Of a DNA stretch of 64,000 nt, positions 54,190 through 63,022 are shown in pieces. The stretch covers positions 310,001 to 374,000 of the forward strand of contig JARKIF010000040.1 in NCBI GenBank assembly GCA_029378245.1, in the 5' to 3' direction. The position numbers and the translations under genes were made by a program. This stretch comes from Roridomyces roridus. Lineage: Eukaryota; Basidiomycota; Agaricomycetes; Agaricales; Mycenaceae. The notes below the pieces were generated by a model. The model made no database searches. It was not told the origin of the DNA and saw nothing but the letters and a program-made list of their open reading frames with translations. How positions within the stretch are numbered: position 1 is the first letter of the stretch; each line of letters opens with the position of its first letter.

Positions 54190-56460
54190 TGGCGAGGAGG
54201 TGACGACGAGCTGAAGAAAGCGGGATGTCGCCGAGTTCAGGTCGCCGTGATGGCTCCCATGGCAAGTCAGATGCATATCGAACGCATTTCTCATGTTCTG
54301 TCAACTCACCATGGCCTTGCTGGAGCCCGCCTTACACGTCGGGGGGCGCGTAGCATCTGGAAAATCCGGTCGTTCTAGCCGGGCCTAGGGAGAGCGGCTA
54401 TACCGCGTAGACGGGTACAAGGTAGGGCTCTACAGAGAAAGCCTGTTCTCCCTAGACTCGGTTAGAATCGGTTAGAACCGCGTATTGGCACCCGCTTAAC
54501 TCAAGCGAACCGCATTGGGAATATCTGATGGCCCCGTCGCAGCCATTGCTAGCTTCCCCGGGCCCCCGGCCATTGCTCGGCCATATTGTGGGTATTCATT
54601 TATGGGCTGCCTCGGCGCACGCTGCACAGAAGTACGTGGAAAGGAATGAGATTCAAATATGAAACACAGCTATTTATATACAAGGCACATAACAGACATA
54701 AAAAAATTCAAGACAGTCGAGCATGTCTTGCAGTCGTCGGCCACCGCGGAACTTGCACTAGGATTGGAGGGGAAGCCCGAAGAGTTGGCAAGGGGAAGCA
54801 AAGCATGGTATGTAGTGATTCTTGAAGGCGGTCTTGAACCTTGAACTTGAAGACAAAGCACCAGAAGACTCGGAGACAAGACGGAAGGGAGAGAGAGGGA
54901 GAGGCGAAGGGGATTTCGATGAAGGGCGTCGTCTTTATACCACGGCATCCATCTGGCGCCCGCTGTCTGATGGAGCTGATGGTTGCATATGAGCATGTCA
55001 GCCGCACTTCGGCAAGTAGTTGAGGTCATTCGCCAATCGTTTGCTGTCGTTCGGGACCAATTCACAGCATGGTTCTGTCGAACATCGTCGTAGGCGGCTC
55101 TATGCGCTCTACGTGCCATACGCGTACGTCAAATTTCTAGGTAGAACGGCCAGTTCTAGGGAACTAAAAGCAAGTTCCAGATGTACAACCACAGAACTGA
55201 GCCACGACTACGTAGGCACAGGTATACTCATGCAACTCAGCTGAGTTTATCTCAAGTGTGCCTACCTCTGCCTACACCACTAGGCAGACCCCGTGCCTAC
55301 CAGCCCTTGGAATGCAGTGAATGCGAGGATGAATTTGTGACCAACTTTTTTCGCTCTTCGCTCTTCGAATCGTTAGTTATGTAATCACAGCATGTCGTTG
55401 CATATGTGGAGGTAGCTCAGCTCTACTACTTCATTGGCCGGTCCGTGAATTCGTTCTGACCAGGGATTTACATCCAGGCTCCAAACCACTCGGTGTACAC
55501 GACTGCTGACCGACTCGGACTTGATCTCAGTCCAGACTCCACTTCAGAATTTCACAAACTCGAGGCTGGAGCATGGAATCGCTTTGTGATTAGGCTTTTA
55601 TCGATTCCGCATTCGTGTAAAACGGAGGAAGACGCACCTGGACATAGATCTTGGTTTGCTTTGAATCCAACAAAGCAGGACTTGTCTTCGAATGCAAACC
55701 TGCGCAAAGATCGGCAGTGGGTACCAAACCCTCGAGAAGATTTTGTTTCTTGCCCGTCGAGCCGCCAGGATCACGCAGCAAATAATCGGAAACAGTCGAT
55801 GGGAGAACGAATAACCGCTGGGGTCATAAAGCCTTTCACGGTACCTGAGCACTACATCACAAATATTCATGGCACTGAAATCTGAGTCCAGTGGCTCGGT
55901 CAAGCAACAGTCCAGTGAATATCTGGTGACCTGGTGACCTGGTCCTGGTCTTCGTTCGACTCGAGTCATGGATTTCAGCGGACGAGAGCGATTATTTTGC
56001 ATGATGGTGCAGAATACCGTATCCCGCAATGACAATGTTGCCTTGTTCAAGTTGGAGGTTGGAACTGAGTTGGAAGTCGGAAGAACTTTCTCGACCGGAT
56101 TTGATCTCGGCATTCAACGCACGATCGCGCTCTGGGCCGCCTTTGATGGTTGATCCTTACCATGTTTGATTGCCGAGGGGGATGTCTGTAATGACTCTGA
56201 AGGAGTGCATTCTCAGAAGTCCAAACTCCCGAATCAAAGCTCTCCAAAAGCTCTCTCAATCCTCCGACACAGATCGGCTAAGTCCGGACGGGTGAAATCG
56301 AAGCGGGTTGGACACCCATCACTGTGTTGATCATTCACGTGAATCACCGATCAGGAGCAAGACTTTTACTTAGCGACGGCAAAGCGACGGTCACTTTGCT
56401 TCCCTTCCTCTCCCGTCTTTACACCAAATTTACACCCTCCACTCTTTTACGGCCCGCGCG
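54190..56460. other. Non-coding stretch with one promoter-like block
   Basis: About 2.3 kb without a supported gene. On the minus strand a GGTATAAAGACG element (about 54935) is followed by a CT-rich leader and an ATG near 54810, which looks like the promoter of a well-expressed gene whose coding part (about 30 codons) is lost or frameshifted; the reading VADDCKTCSTVLNFF lies in another frame. The second arm of the GTAGCTCA direct repeat is at 55411. The minus-strand reading at 55598-56113 has no recognisable family. Confidence 0.3.
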
Positions 56461-57494
56461 ATGCACGCCTTCTCCCCCGTCGTTGGCGCACTCCTTGGAA
56501 TCTGTCAATGGGCAACTACCGTACGTGGACTCTTGTCGTCACCGACCTTCCGCGTATAACCTCATGCAGGTCCGGGCAGAGGCATGCGCCGACGCCTCCA
56601 AGGCAGTTCCTCTCTACCGCGACTTCAATGGGGGCATCGGTGACCACTTCTACACCGTGCGCTGACTGCCCTCCCTCCGCTTCCTTGCTTCCTGGCTCAC
56701 CTCTGTCGCGGTAGACCGACAAAGCAGAATACGACGCAGCCAATCAAGGGGGATACACAGCAGAGGGCGCCCGTCTCTCCGTCTTCTCCCAACAATACTC
56801 CGGTACCGTACGCTTCTTCCGGCTCTGGAACGGCGGGTTGGGCGACCACTTTTTCACCACCAACGCCACGGAGGCTGACTCTGCCGCGACGCACAACGGC
56901 TACGTCCACGAAGACGACAAGGCGCCGATGTGGATTTACCCGGATCAGCTGTGCGGCAGCGTACCGTTGTTCCGGATGTACAATAACGGCGCGTCGGATC
57001 ATTTTTATACCATCGACGCGGCGGAGAGGGACGACGCTGCTGCACATGGGTGGTCGTTTGAGTGGATTGCGGGCTATGTCTTCCCCGCTCCCGGCAGTGC
57101 TCAAATTAGCAGCAGCAGCAGCAGCACTGCCACCACCACCACCACAGCCAGTTCGGTCAAGAGCTCGACGACGCCGAGCACATCTGCGTCGACAGGCACC
57201 GTGACCTCGGCCACGCCATCCGGGACGAGCTCTGCGGCGCCTCAACCATCGAATCTCGCCGATACCGGTCCAGTGACCCCCGCAGCTACGACGGACCTCT
57301 CACCTTCCAACGCCGCTGATACGACGCCTACAGGGTGAGTCAAATTTTCGTCCTTTGTCGGAGTCGGATTATTCTCAATTTGGCCTCTCTCTAGGACGGC
57401 GCAGAACAATGGCGCACCATCTATGACCTCCCGACCGACCTCCTTTCTCGCTACACTCACGCTTCTCGGTGTTGTGTCTGGGTGGTGGGTCTGA
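56461..57494 (+). CDS. Secreted DUF5648-type repeat protein with GPI-type tail
   Basis: ATG 56461 gives a signal peptide (MHAFSPVVGALLGICQWA) split by an intron, then ACADASKAVPLYRDFNGG with IGDHFYT. After a second intron (GTGCGC...GGTAG) come TDKAEYDAANQGGYTAEG, VRFFRLWNGGLGDHFFTT, and CGSVPLFRMYNNGASDHFYT with AAERDDAAAHGWSFEWIAG. The repeated L-R/Y-x-x-x-DHFYT unit (three copies) is the DUF5648 signature, often found in secreted or lipase-linked proteins. A Ser/Thr-rich stalk leads through a last intron to LATLTLLGVVSGWWV and a stop at 57492-57494, consistent with a GPI signal. The enzymatic role is unknown. It seems intact. Confidence 0.8.
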
Positions 57495-57940
57495 TGCTGC
57501 CCATCTCGTTTCGATCTTACATATTACGTTTGGACTGGATTTATTTCCGCTCTACGCCGGATCTCTCAACTGAAAGCCTCCCGCGAATCCTAGCGACAAT
57601 CGGTGACCCAACAGTCTTTCGAGCACCGGGCCAATGAGCACCTGGTTCTACATCGCTGGAGCTCTCCCTATCCTTCCGTGTCTTCCATTCCTTTTTCTCA
57701 GACTCCGATGGGCGTACTAGCCGTGAAAAACCAAATCAGACGATCATTGAACAGTAATGTACATGGAGTTTTCAAAAACATCAAGAACTCCGCCAAATAT
57801 CCCTGTAGGTCTTCCGTGAGCGGTCGCGGGTTGTGTTGGTCGTGCATGCAAGACTCACCTCGGAAAAACACCATTCATTCATTCGAGCTGGAGGCTTGGG
57901 AGTTGTCTAGACATGCTGAGATACATGGGTTTAGCCTCAA
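57495..57940. other. Intergenic
   Basis: About 450 bases downstream of the DUF5648 gene. Nothing recognisable. Confidence 0.35.
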
Positions 57941-58490
57941 GGAGATCGAAAGAGGATGGGAGAAATGACGAACCGGCTGAGAATATTAATGGAAGACGCA
58001 GAAGCGATCAGTTTTGGTTGGGGGTGATGAAAGAATGCCGACTGACGCCGTTCGTAAGGGACTTCCCAGCCTAACCTCCTTGTGAGTAAACGATTCAACT
58101 TCATCAGATTGTATGAACTTACGTCTCTCTTGACCTGCACGGATTGGTGCCTTCAGGCAATCGAAAGACAATAGGAGGAATGACGACCCACCTGGGAATG
58201 GAAGACGCAGCATCAATCAGTTTTGGTTGGGAGTTAAGCAATGCCCACTAACGCCGGTAGGAGGATCCTGATCAATGCGATTCTGAGGTTTGAAGTTCGT
58301 AATGGACTTCCCGAGTGATTCCTGTAAGTAAATGATTCAACTTCATCAAAGTATATGGACTTACGTCTCTCTCAACCTGTGCAGGTTGCCTTCAGCCTCT
58401 CGAAAGAGAATGGGAGAAATGACGAGCCTGCTTAATGGACTTCCCGAGTGATCCCTGTCAGCAAAGGATTCATCTTTGTAGTGTGTGGAA
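57941..58490. repeat. Three degenerate tandem units with splice-donor-like motifs
   Basis: Units begin near 57945 (ATCGAAAGAGGATGGGAGAA), 58160 and 58395 (TCGAAAGAGAATGGGAGAA) and share AAATGACGA, GGACTTCCC, AATGATTCAACTTCATCA and ACTTACGTCTCTC. On the minus strand the last motif reads GAGAGACGTAAGT, a strong donor consensus, and is followed about 44 bases later by an acceptor-like TTACTTACAG in unit 2. This could be a duplicated exon-intron block of an RNA or decayed gene. No long reading frame was found. Confidence 0.5.
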
Positions 58491-59150
58491 CCTACTCTCG
58501 TGCTCTACGCGGGTTGGGTGTTTATTGACATATATATCAGGAGATAACTTACGCTCTGTATATGAGAGGATCATTATTCCAACGCTCGGCCGCGAGAATG
58601 CTTGAGAAACTCACAGACTAGGCAGCGATCAACAGTCGTGTCAAGAGTCCCCAGTACAAACGGGGATTACTCACGCACTGAGCGTGATAAGTAAGGTTGT
58701 ACAGTAGCAATGGAAGTAGATCACTCACGCTCTAATTGCCGGTCAGCGATTCAATCTGGTCAAACGGCAGAGTTCAAAACAGCAACGTACGTTCTGGGAC
58801 ACAGAAAGTCAGCTACCATCGTGAAAGGGAATGGAAGCAGCTTACAGGCTGTGGTATGGTTCAAACCTCAAGCTATGCTCATCGGACAGAGGAACAGAAA
58901 CAGCACGTACGTCCTGGCGTTGACGTCTCTCTATGAGTCCGCCAACCAGGCATGGGCAAGAACAACGCTCACCGTCTGTAGGAAGCCAAGTTCAACACGT
59001 CAATCTAAGCGCAGCTAGAAGTGCTCACACACTGGAAGGTTCAACTCAGCGAGAGCCGTTCAACGAGATGGGAACTTTCACGTACAAATTCGGGGGTAAC
59101 GACGGCCACCACCTCAGGATCGACCTGAATTTTTCAAAAACACGAATGAG
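58491..59150. other. Non-coding stretch downstream of the secreted-peptide gene
   Basis: Contains several minus-strand GTGAGT donor-like sites (for example near 58606, 58671, 58722), but no coherent coding exon. Confidence 0.3.
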
Positions 59151-59350
59151 TCAACGCTGAGAACCTTGGGGGATACCCACAGCGACAAGCGGCTCACGCG
59201 CGACGACCGCGACAACGTCCGACTCAACCTGAGCGAATATGATAAGCCTGGTTAGCGAGACTAGAGGTCAAGACTCACAGCGACCACAGGGCTGGCTGCG
59301 GCACCGGCGACGAGGGTGATGGCGGCGATGACAATCTTGAAAAGCTGCAT
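59151..59350 (-). CDS. Small secreted peptide precursor (49 residues)
   Basis: ATG 59350 encodes MQLFKIVIAAITLVAGAAAS and then PVVA at the end of exon 1: a textbook signal peptide (basic n-region after position 4, hydrophobic core, AAAS cleavage zone). A 50-bp intron (59229-59278, GTGAGT...CTCAG) joins in phase 0 to exon 2: VESDVVAVVAREPLVAVGIP and QGSQR, stop at 59151-59153. The mature peptide would be about 28 residues, with no cysteine, no CaaX motif and no dibasic site, so it is neither a mating-pheromone precursor nor a Cys-rich effector. The TATA element and clean intron argue that it is real. Function unknown. Confidence 0.6.
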
Positions 59351-59395
59351 ATCTGGAGGAGTGGGGGATGTAGAACAGGACGTACCGAGTTCCTG

Positions 59396-59404
59396 CTTTT
59401 TATA
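59396..59404 (-). promoter_or_regulatory. TATA element of the small secreted peptide gene
   Basis: TATAAAAAG on the minus strand, about 46 bases before the ATG. Confidence 0.5.
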
Positions 59405-59782
59405 AGTCAAACCCCGGCGATGAAGAGGTGAGGCTGGGGACATCATCATTGTTAACTGACAGGAAACGGATCCGGTTGGGCATCGGATGGGCGGTTACAA
59501 TTGCACGGAAACATTTCTGCCACCACATTCGGCATATGGCCGTGATTCCTCGTAGTTGGTTCCTGTTCAAGAGACGCATGTATTGGGATCAGCCGCATAA
59601 AGTACGCCATGCAAAGTGATGAACGGGGAATTCGCGCACCTGTGAAAACTCGCAGAATTGGTCGGTGGATCGTGAATCTGAGGCGATGTGTGCTGAATCA
59701 GTGGTGCGATCACGCCACAAACCCGATACATCAACCACGGGCTGTGGTTCATTTGGTGGCTGAATGATCGATCAGCTTTGAG
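59405..59782. other. Intergenic
   Basis: No gene. It ends at the TA target site of the helicase element. Confidence 0.35.
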
Positions 59783-59784
59783 TA

Positions 59785-60000
59785 GTCTCACCAGTCAGAC
59801 GGCTAAGTTCACCCTAAAAGGGAACCCGGCCTTAGCCGTCTGATCCAATTGTCGCCAAGATGGGTGACATAACCCTTCGGGCTTCTCGGGTAACGCTTTT
59901 GATAACGTAACCCGTAACGCTCTGCTGACGCGCCCACCACACCTCCTCCTACACGCTCGTCCCGCCGCCTCCCGCGCGTCCCTCGGCGCGGGGACCTCTC
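59785..60000 (+). repeat. Left 216-bp terminal inverted repeat
   Basis: The outer 60 bp fold as a hairpin: TCAGACGGCTAAG pairs with CTTAGCCGTCTGA, and the loop contains a second hairpin CCCT-AAA-AGGG. It differs from the right copy at one base in the CGTAACCCGTAA segment. Confidence 0.85.
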
Positions 60001-60049
60001 ATCGAACTCATTCATGTCAATACCTACTCAAAATACACATTTCTTGCGT

Positions 60050-60662
60050 CTACTGAGCTGGAATAACCACGGTCTCGGCCAGTACCTCTCTGAGCCTGTG
60101 ATCCAGCTCCTCATCCTCGTCAACATCTTCCTGCACCGTGAAATTGACCGGGGCCTGTTCCTCAATCAAAAATAACTCCTTCTCTGCCTCTAATTCAATT
60201 CTCTGCTGCTGGGGATCGACAGAAAGCTGGCGGTTGCGGAGTGAGAGACGATGCCGCGCTAGATGTTTGGCGTGTCCTCCGTTGGGCCCGGCAAGCTTGC
60301 TCAGACCGGCGCGATACAAATCTTTGACCTTCGTTTCGATTGCGGCATCCTGTGAGAAGTCGAAGACGGTGTTCGACGTCAAATGCGACAGCATTATTGC
60401 GACGTCTTTGTGTTGCTTGACGTGTGCATGGCGCTGAGTCTGGGATTGGATTCCCATTTCTTGGTACAGCTCGTCCTGGAAGCTCCTCGAGAGGGATATC
60501 CAAGAAACCATTCCCTTGGTCGGGGAAATCTTGAAGGTCCACCAGTTCACTGAGAGGAGAGCTGGCGCGCACTGAGCTAGATAGTTCCTCCTGGTCGAAG
60601 TAGAAGTCGACCCCCGGCAGGTACGTAATACCGTCCCTAGCTCGCAGAGAACGGGTGGTCAT
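60050..60662 (-). CDS. Companion protein of the helicase element, unknown function
   Basis: ATG 60662 starts MTTRSLRARDGITYLPGVDF, then FDQEELSSS in one frame. The continuation in a second frame reads SFQDELYQEMGIQ, HVKQHKDVAIMLSHLTSN, FDFSQDAAIETKVKDLYRAG, HAKHLARHRLSLRNRQLS and an acidic tail FTVQEDVDEDEELDHRLRE, stop at about 60050. The two frames could be joined by a short intron (a 43-bp candidate starting GTGCGC at about 60568 restores the phase), or one of them is frameshifted. The helical, highly charged nature suggests a DNA- or protein-binding partner. It sits 84 bp downstream of the helicase gene, same strand, inside the TIRs. I do not recognise the family. Confidence 0.5.
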
Positions 60663-60745
60663 GGCGGTCGAGGTAGAGATGGGAAGATAAGATCATGATG
60701 TGATAGTGCCGACTACTTACACAAAGTAGTAAGATTATTAAAATA

Positions 60746-62743
60746 TTAAAATTGAAGTATACTTTCATGCGGGCCCATATTTTTCCTGCATGCTGCATCC
60801 ATTTGCTGATCTAGTTTTGAATTTTGAACCGCCGTGCGAGGACGTTTGGGTACCGGTGTGGCCGGAGTTGCTTGCGGGCTGGGCCTTTTCCGCCCGTTCG
60901 GCACTGGGGTTCCCCAGGTCGGGTAGGAGGGCGGAGCAATAGCCAAGTACGCACCCCGCGCGAGCCGAAATAGGCCAGGTGCAACAACAGACCACTGAGA
61001 GACGGTGATGTGGTCATCCAAATCTTCGACCGACTGAATGTTGTGGATATTTTGTGCGACGTCAAGGAGAGCAGAGTCCGAAATGAAGTCCCGTGGACCG
61101 TAAGATGGATAGAGCCCACGCCACTCCTCTTTCCACGAGTCAAGCCTCCAATCCATGAGTCTCTGGTGTATATCGGCAACTTCATCATCCTCCAGGGGCG
61201 AGACCTTTTCAGCCGGAGCTGACCACGACTCCCATCGGAATTCACGTCCAGGAAGAAGCTGTGGATGGCATGTCGAGCAGCACAATGCATCCCTGGGAAG
61301 CGACTTGTCGCGCGGGGGGGTTTTCGAGGCCGGACTCAAAGATATCATCGCAGCACACGTTCGACGTCGCAGCCAGGGCGAGCTGCAGTACGTAGGGATC
61401 TTGAGACTGAAGGTCTGCATCAGACGCGTCCGCCTCTTTTGGGATCATGCTCGGCTCGAAGAGAAAATAAGTGGTGCTCCTCTCTCCACGCGCGCGTGCA
61501 CCCCGACCGGCTCGCTGTGCAGCCCGGACAAGACTGAGATCGCGCATTTTGTATTGCACGACACGTGCGACCCCAGGCATGTCGATGCCGGGCCCTATCT
61601 TCTCCGAGCCGAGCAGGAACACGACTTTGTGCGTGCGGAAGTCGGCTAGAGATTTTGAAGCATGCTCATCGCTCAGACCCGCGTGGAGAATATCCACGAA
61701 GTCTGTCGAGAGGTGCAAACTCGCCAACCGCTCTTGAAACCACCAAAACATGCTAGTGAGCATGTCACAGTCGTCGCAGTAAATGAGTGTTGGGAGCTGG
61801 CGTAGAGATGCAGGGGTAGAGCCATGGGGAAGGAGAAAGGCGAGGTCGAGGAAGGAGGTGAGTGGGTGTTCGATGCGGAGAATGACTGTGGAAAGTTCAG
61901 GACGGAAGTTGCCCAGATTGATGAGCTTGTAGTCTGCGCTCAAGCCGATTTCCGACATGAAGTGGGCACGGTAGGACTCGGGCAGGGTTGCGGAGAGCAA
62001 AACAAGTGGGACATCCATGCCAACAATGGGTCGAATCCGAAAGATGCGCTGGTAAGACGGGCGCCAGTCTCGAGACTCCTTGCCCAAATGTATCTCGTCC
62101 AGGAAGAGTGCCACGAGACGCTCCGAGAAGCCAGCCGTGTGAATGACTCTAGCGAACGTGGGAGACTCCAACATCTCCGGGCACACGTAGATGATTAGTC
62201 CCTCACAGCTCGCGGCGTATGCAAGCTGTGCGTCGGACCGATTTTCGGCGTAGAGAAAGATGGAATTCAATCCGAGGCGTTTGCTATTGAGACCGGGATT
62301 AAATCCAGAGCAGGGTATGTTAGGGGAACTCACACTGCGGCAGAACCTTCCAGTCCAAGAGAAGTATACGGTACGACAACGATGGCTACGGCCTTCTTGT
62401 GCACACGGAGCGGTAGACTGTAGACTTTGGATTTCCCGGAACCCGTTGGAGCGATGAGAACGGTGTCTCCGGCACGCGAAATGACACGGTTGGCGCACTC
62501 CCATTGGTGTGGACGTAGTGATTGGAATGCCGTGATTTCGCCGCTCTCCCGCGCGATGACATTCCATTGAGATTCCGTCAGGGGCTTGTGTGGTTTCAAT
62601 CTGCCAGCAGAGGGAACCGCAAATGCCGCCTGCTTGAGATGCCGTTGATTGAGCGCGTATGGAACGTAGTCCGGCGGGGGTGGCTTCCGAGTTTTATAGC
62701 CATTTCGATACACCGTTGAGGGTGTGTCAGTGGGAGCAGGCAT
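60746..62743 (-). pseudogene. RecQ-like DExH DNA helicase of the TIR element, frameshifted in the zinc-binding region
   Basis: ATP-dependent 3'-5' DNA unwinding is the family activity. Motifs in order: LRPHQWECANRVIS (motif 0), LIAPTGSGKSKVYSLPL (I), VVPYTSLGLEG (Ia), FLDEIHLGKESRDWRPSY (II, DEIH), VLLSATLP (III), TLIYCDDCDMLTSMFWW (IV), GSEKIGPGIDMPGVARVVQY (V) and RAAQRAGRGARARGE (VI). A 50-bp intron (62284-62333, GTGAGT...AATAG, branch-like CTAAC) splits the gene after motif Ia and keeps frame. Next comes the RecQ zinc region: VCCDDIFESGLENPP, then a G7 run (C7 on the coding strand) at 61314-61320, after which the expected CCSTCHPQLLPGREF lies in another frame. A one-base change in that run separates the ATPase core from the zinc and C-terminal parts (to 60746). 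RQC and HRDC domains are not evident. Confidence 0.8.
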
Positions 62744-62804
62744 ACGGTCGAATTAACGTGTATTTACACACAGGGAGTAGTGTAAACAGGTGAAAAAGAG
62801 TGTG

Positions 62805-63020
62805 GAGAGGTCCCCGCGCCGAGGGACGCGCGGGAGGCGGCGGGACGAGCGTGTAGGAGGAGGTGTGGTGGGCGCGTCAGCAGAGCGTTACAGGTTACGT
62901 TATCAAAAGCGTTACCCGAGAAGCCCGAAGGGTTATGTCACCCATCTTGGCGACAATTGGATCAGACGGCTAAGGCCGGGTTCCCTTTTAGGGTGAACTT
63001 AGCCGTCTGACTGGTGAGAC
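62805..63020 (-). repeat. Right 216-bp terminal inverted repeat
   Basis: Reverse complement of 59785-60000 with one difference (CGTAACCTGTAA). Each TIR also contains an outward open reading of about 65 codons, Arg/Gly-rich, with start codons just inside the unique region; coding is doubtful. Confidence 0.85.
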
Positions 63021-63022
63021 TA

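Follow-up and report, generated by a model that had tools for sequence, protein, structure and literature searches.

What kind of element holds a helicase gene between long, nearly identical inverted repeats and has no working transposase of its own? The question is posed by positions 59783 to 63022 of a 64,000-nucleotide (nt) stretch of contig JARKIF010000040.1 of Roridomyces roridus, the whole of which we call the window. An earlier note on this DNA had described inverted repeats of 216 base pairs (bp) with one mismatch, TA on both sides and two genes on the same strand, and had read them either as a distinct class of element or as a helicase module captured by a mariner-type transposon; its observation is right and its mechanism largely wrong. 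Namely, we propose, with a probability of roughly 0.8, that the copy in the window arose by deletion from an AcademH-like DNA transposon and is non-autonomous. The parts of the element are the following.

59783 to 60000, plus strand: left terminal inverted repeat (TIR), starting TAGTCTCACCAG, without a 9-bp target duplication outside it
62805 to 63022, minus strand: right TIR, with one mismatch relative to the left arm
59795 to 59842, plus strand: subterminal palindrome (hairpin), CAGACGGCTAAG ... CTTAGCCGTCTG, with a mirror copy at about 62963 to 63010
62345 to 62743, minus strand: helicase exon 1 with APTGSGKS, which we take to be the Walker A motif; its 3' end is approximate, and a short intron probably comes next
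61320 to 62310, minus strand: helicase core with DEIH, SATL and QRAGRGAR; approximate limits
60746 to 61282, minus strand: C-terminal part of the helicase, in a frame that differs from that of the core; residues 507-619 of the Mycena helicase P0002 match 61282-60947
60050 to 60658, minus strand: companion gene, C-terminal tail remnant of a likely DUF6589 transposase; no catalytic domain
60195 to 60692, minus strand: overlapping frame, with the start MTTRSLRARDG at about 60662; may be the first exon of the tail gene

Both genes are indeed minus-strand frames, one for the helicase and one for a short second protein, which the earlier note took for an independent partner. When this companion was compared by BLAST with 120 proteins, it matched 49 of 72 homologues of the Pfam family DUF6589 (PF20231) at E ≤ 1e-3, and none of 48 helicase homologues. 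The homology begins close to the end of the DUF6589 domain and, in the homologue P0051, covers residues 481-586, past the last invariant residue, D460 (the structure alignment drew on 33 of the 72 DUF6589 homologues). Since the match lies C-terminal to the domain and beyond D460, we read the companion as the remnant of a transposase without its catalytic core. In other words, it resembles the DUF6589 proteins of Agaricomycetes in the part that follows the domain, and differs from them in that the domain itself is absent from the element; the claim that no working transposase lies inside thus holds, as only this tail remains. A family of separate partner proteins was rejected in view of these matches, and a database search among proteins of 0.55 to 1.75 times the companion's length gave nothing at E ≤ 1e-3. 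Could the N-terminus of the transposase have been retained as well? The start MTTRSLRARDG resembles it weakly, with 6 of 1000 shuffled sequences scoring as high, and this candidate was rejected as weak.

Pfam lists DUF6589 as a family of unknown function; no mention of it was found in the open-licence literature, where PF20231 appeared only in an unrelated context. The R. roridus genome contains 47 DUF6589 matches in 23 clusters, 13 of which have a helicase match near them and 10 of which have none. Seen from the helicase side, 13 of the 15 helicase matches outside the window have a DUF6589 match at a distance of 626 to 3,532 bp, always on the opposite strand (7 convergent, 6 divergent), a fraction that may be inflated by duplicates with like scores and gaps (two C223 loci; C190, C482 and C449; C472, C468 and C109), the pooling of which leaves about 8 groups. 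The window and the loci L047 and L048 have no DUF6589 match within 6 kilobases (kb). A helicase beside DUF6589 is, in other words, the common state in this genome, and not a sign of a captured module or of a new class. The companion itself has a sole match elsewhere in the genome, the DUF6589 locus on C146 (37 percent, E 2.6e-19). What is more, the companion shares the strand of the helicase, whereas DUF6589 in the 13 relatives lies opposite it, so that the window copy has either been rearranged or derives from an arrangement not seen here.

The DUF6589 model shows moderate likeness to the P-element, Hermes and Transib transposases; a Foldseek search returned no row at E ≤ 0.001. We consider it likely that DUF6589 is the active DDE transposase of helicase-bearing transposons, and we would take it for the transposase of Academ.

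One can argue that the element is instead a MULE (Mutator-like element), or another element making 9-bp duplications, which took up a helicase gene by pack-type capture, as long TIRs and 9-bp duplications would fit such an origin too. In Marasmius oreades, putative non-autonomous MULE and Academ elements are widespread, according to PMC8290104. That said, the adjacency of helicase and DUF6589 at 13 of 15 loci and the DUF6589 tail in the companion make the helicase look native to the family, and the C146 piece, which matches DUF6589 at E 3.4e-57, matched no other Pfam family, so a capture of this kind appears quite unlikely. No Mutator-type transposase was present among the Pfam matches of the pieces scanned, and no MULE-profile search of the genome was made.

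Returning to the AcademH-like derivative, the helicase itself is RecQ-like, as had been claimed: its core matched RecQ chains in the PDB (best E 1.2e-5), its matches to the NCBIfam RecQ models fall far below their cut-offs, and the five frames of the window scanned against Pfam matched nothing but DEAD, Helicase_C and ResIII. Aligned with P0002, it covers residues 49-619 as three segments separated by short gaps, one junction being compatible with a short intron and the other being a frame change between about 61282 and about 61320, for which mutation and assembly error are equally candidates, the two not being told apart. A 473-amino-acid helicase record of R. roridus is 100% identical to it across the aligned part, and the closest of the 15 other matches in the genome reach 48 and 52 percent; this list was seeded from the window helicase, and distant helicases may be missing from it. 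Fungal telomere-linked helicases are RecQ-like and subtelomeric, and the window helicase shares their domain; it differs from them in lying between TIRs and beside transposase sequence. The contig is a fragment, and the nearer of its ends is about 101 kb away. Helitrons, for their part, encode a Rep-Hel protein and have no terminal inverted repeats, unlike this element with its long TIRs and its three helicase-type Pfam matches.

How, then, do the ends behave? The inverted repeats are real and amount to 218 nt apiece when TA is counted, with a single C/T difference at position 131. The palindrome within them folds at -14.8 kcal/mol, a value that none of 200 shuffles equalled, and the ends of sister elements show, by eye, a comparable design. 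A TIR search of the 90.8-Mb (megabase) genome gave at least 20 matching places, two of them the copy's own ends; among the other 18 listed, none extends past base 105 of the 217-base query, and the short elements L031 (560 bp) and L032 (553 bp) have about 105 bp of TIR in common with the window copy. At the helicase matches, a TAGTCTC end was found at 6 of 15 in the DNA examined around them. Both genes of C109 lie between a pair of ends, and on C472 and C468 only a single end each was found with up to 2 mismatches allowed.

The TA on both sides, although literally present, is in the element ends compared a constant part of the terminus 5'-TAGTCTC. We scanned the window, L029-L044 and L047-L062 for exact TAGTCTC/GAGACTA pairs up to 12 kb apart within one locus, reporting those with a repeat of at least 7 bases or a terminus identity of at least 22/30. 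Exact 9-bp repeats outside TA occur in three of the four pairs listed by terminus identity (L031, L032 and L047); L035 and L044 were reported for their 9-bp repeat and are excluded from this count. As these repeats lie outside TA, we read TA as the start of the element, and a TA target duplication was rejected on the same flanks. Consequently, that a Tc1/mariner element with a TA duplication captured the helicase, for which the TA at both sides would speak, has next to no probability.

The fourth pair is the window copy, and it has no 9-bp duplication. Immediately to its left lies one further feature.

59617 to 59782, no strand assigned: 166-bp piece abutting the left end of the element, with further copies at C334 and, over 160 of its 166 bp, at C113

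The homology of the outer left flank to C135 ends at the start of this piece, and together the two suggest a rearrangement beside the left end, to which we would attribute the missing duplication. As a separate observation, the left outer flank (about 55300-59616) is paralogous to stretches on C135 (72-82 percent identity) and partly on C334 (76-85 percent). The empty site called for in the earlier note was not found: the joined flanks (274 nt) gave no match spanning the junction in the genome, the left part of the query matching C334 and C113, whereas its right part matched nowhere but at the locus of the element itself. Likewise, the 978-bp right flank has no close copy elsewhere, merely two weak 73% matches.

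AcademH DNA transposons were reportedly described by Kojima in 2020. Their duplications measure 9 or 10 bp, compared with 3 or 4 bp in AcademX, according to PMC10045372; AcademH helicases occur in fungi, as stated in PMC10799480, and Academ is called a recently identified type in PMC12210899. No mention of Academ together with an XPG nuclease was found in the open-licence literature. The element resembles AcademH, a helicase-encoding fungal DNA transposon, in its superfamily II helicase gene (with one frame change) and its TIRs, and its family would do so in the 9-bp duplications of three of the four pairs, a length within the published range, and in the putative DDE-type transposase (DUF6589, with its moderately DDE-like fold) beside the helicase of relatives. 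The window copy has neither the transposase core nor a target duplication, for which reason we leave formal membership open and retain AcademH as the most likely source, with a working like that of AcademH; the superfamily name would follow from these likenesses.

Fuller relatives carry DUF6589, the likely transposase, and the RecQ-like helicase on opposite strands, several of them with TAGTCTC ends and the subterminal palindrome. The transposase would presumably cut at the ends and join them with a 9-bp stagger, and the helicase would presumably unwind DNA in excision, integration or gap repair. The window copy has lost the transposase core and kept the tail, a helicase that is nearly complete save for the frame change, and intact ends. 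With the core gone and the ends intact, movement would require a transposase supplied from elsewhere, so that mobilisation in trans, as the note had it, is probable.

A relative of special bearing here is L047 (on C190), which has the ends TAGTCTCGGCAACCAGACCC, a 9-bp repeat GACTGACTG, a long helicase frame and a transposase in pieces only; L048 (on C465) has the same right end and a left end cut short. Both, the two of the 15 helicase matches without DUF6589 nearby, have a piece of a transposase: they encode, opposite the helicase strand, a protein starting MAYPIRPHWGEM that is related to other pieces in the genome. Another piece of L048 has a 53 percent match at C146:290033-290377, interrupted by one stop; by arithmetic, this match is in frame with the one to DUF6589 on C146, the start of which is at 290468. 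Such copies bear on two other explanations. In the first, helicase-only derivatives would be a recurrent, selected form that keeps ends and helicase and borrows the transposase in trans, the orphan tail of the window copy acting as a regulator or repressor of the family, as truncated P-element proteins do; L047, whose ends are likewise intact and which combines a 9-bp duplication and a long helicase frame with a gutted transposase, would fit it as a second copy, and we nonetheless regard it as improbable. In the second, the elements would form a distinct class, moved in trans and replicating by their own helicase. The missing core, the mostly complete helicase and the near-identical ends agree with this, as does L047; the persisting tail, the DUF6589 beside the helicase in 13 relatives and the frame change do not, and we think it very unlikely. 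In particular, there was no sign that the helicase increases copy number: neither the TIR search nor the protein searches of the genome revealed the complete window element a second time, its interior DNA having been compared with the fetched loci only.

The element itself is mostly an ordinary relic, and it is its relatives that supply the useful by-products, namely a likely function for DUF6589 and, in TAGTCTC with the palindrome, a recognisable terminus; the two could aid the annotation of this kind of element in mushrooms, short derivatives included. The 18-nt terminus proposed in the earlier note has 12 exact matches in the genome, 6 per strand, and its reversed control has 0. The pattern TAGTCTCN{4,8}CAGAC gave 623 matches genome-wide versus 47 for its reversed control; a large population of elements carries TAGTCTC and the subterminal palindrome.

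Among minor observations, L034-L040 and L044 are insertions of about 50-67 bp that consist almost wholly of a single element end and lie between 9-bp repeats (partly by eye), and several have identical flanks on different contigs; the flanks of L036 equal those of L035 as far as compared. L034 is a comparable insertion whose repeat has, by eye, one base different, and L037 to L040 have 9-bp repeats by eye and right ends that do not read GAGACTA. Finally, a 16-kb inverted pair on C2 (L030), considered as an autonomous partner, was rejected on its mismatching flanks and not counted as an element; its longest open frame, of 994 amino acids at about 1194219-1197200, resembles by eye a part of a retroelement.
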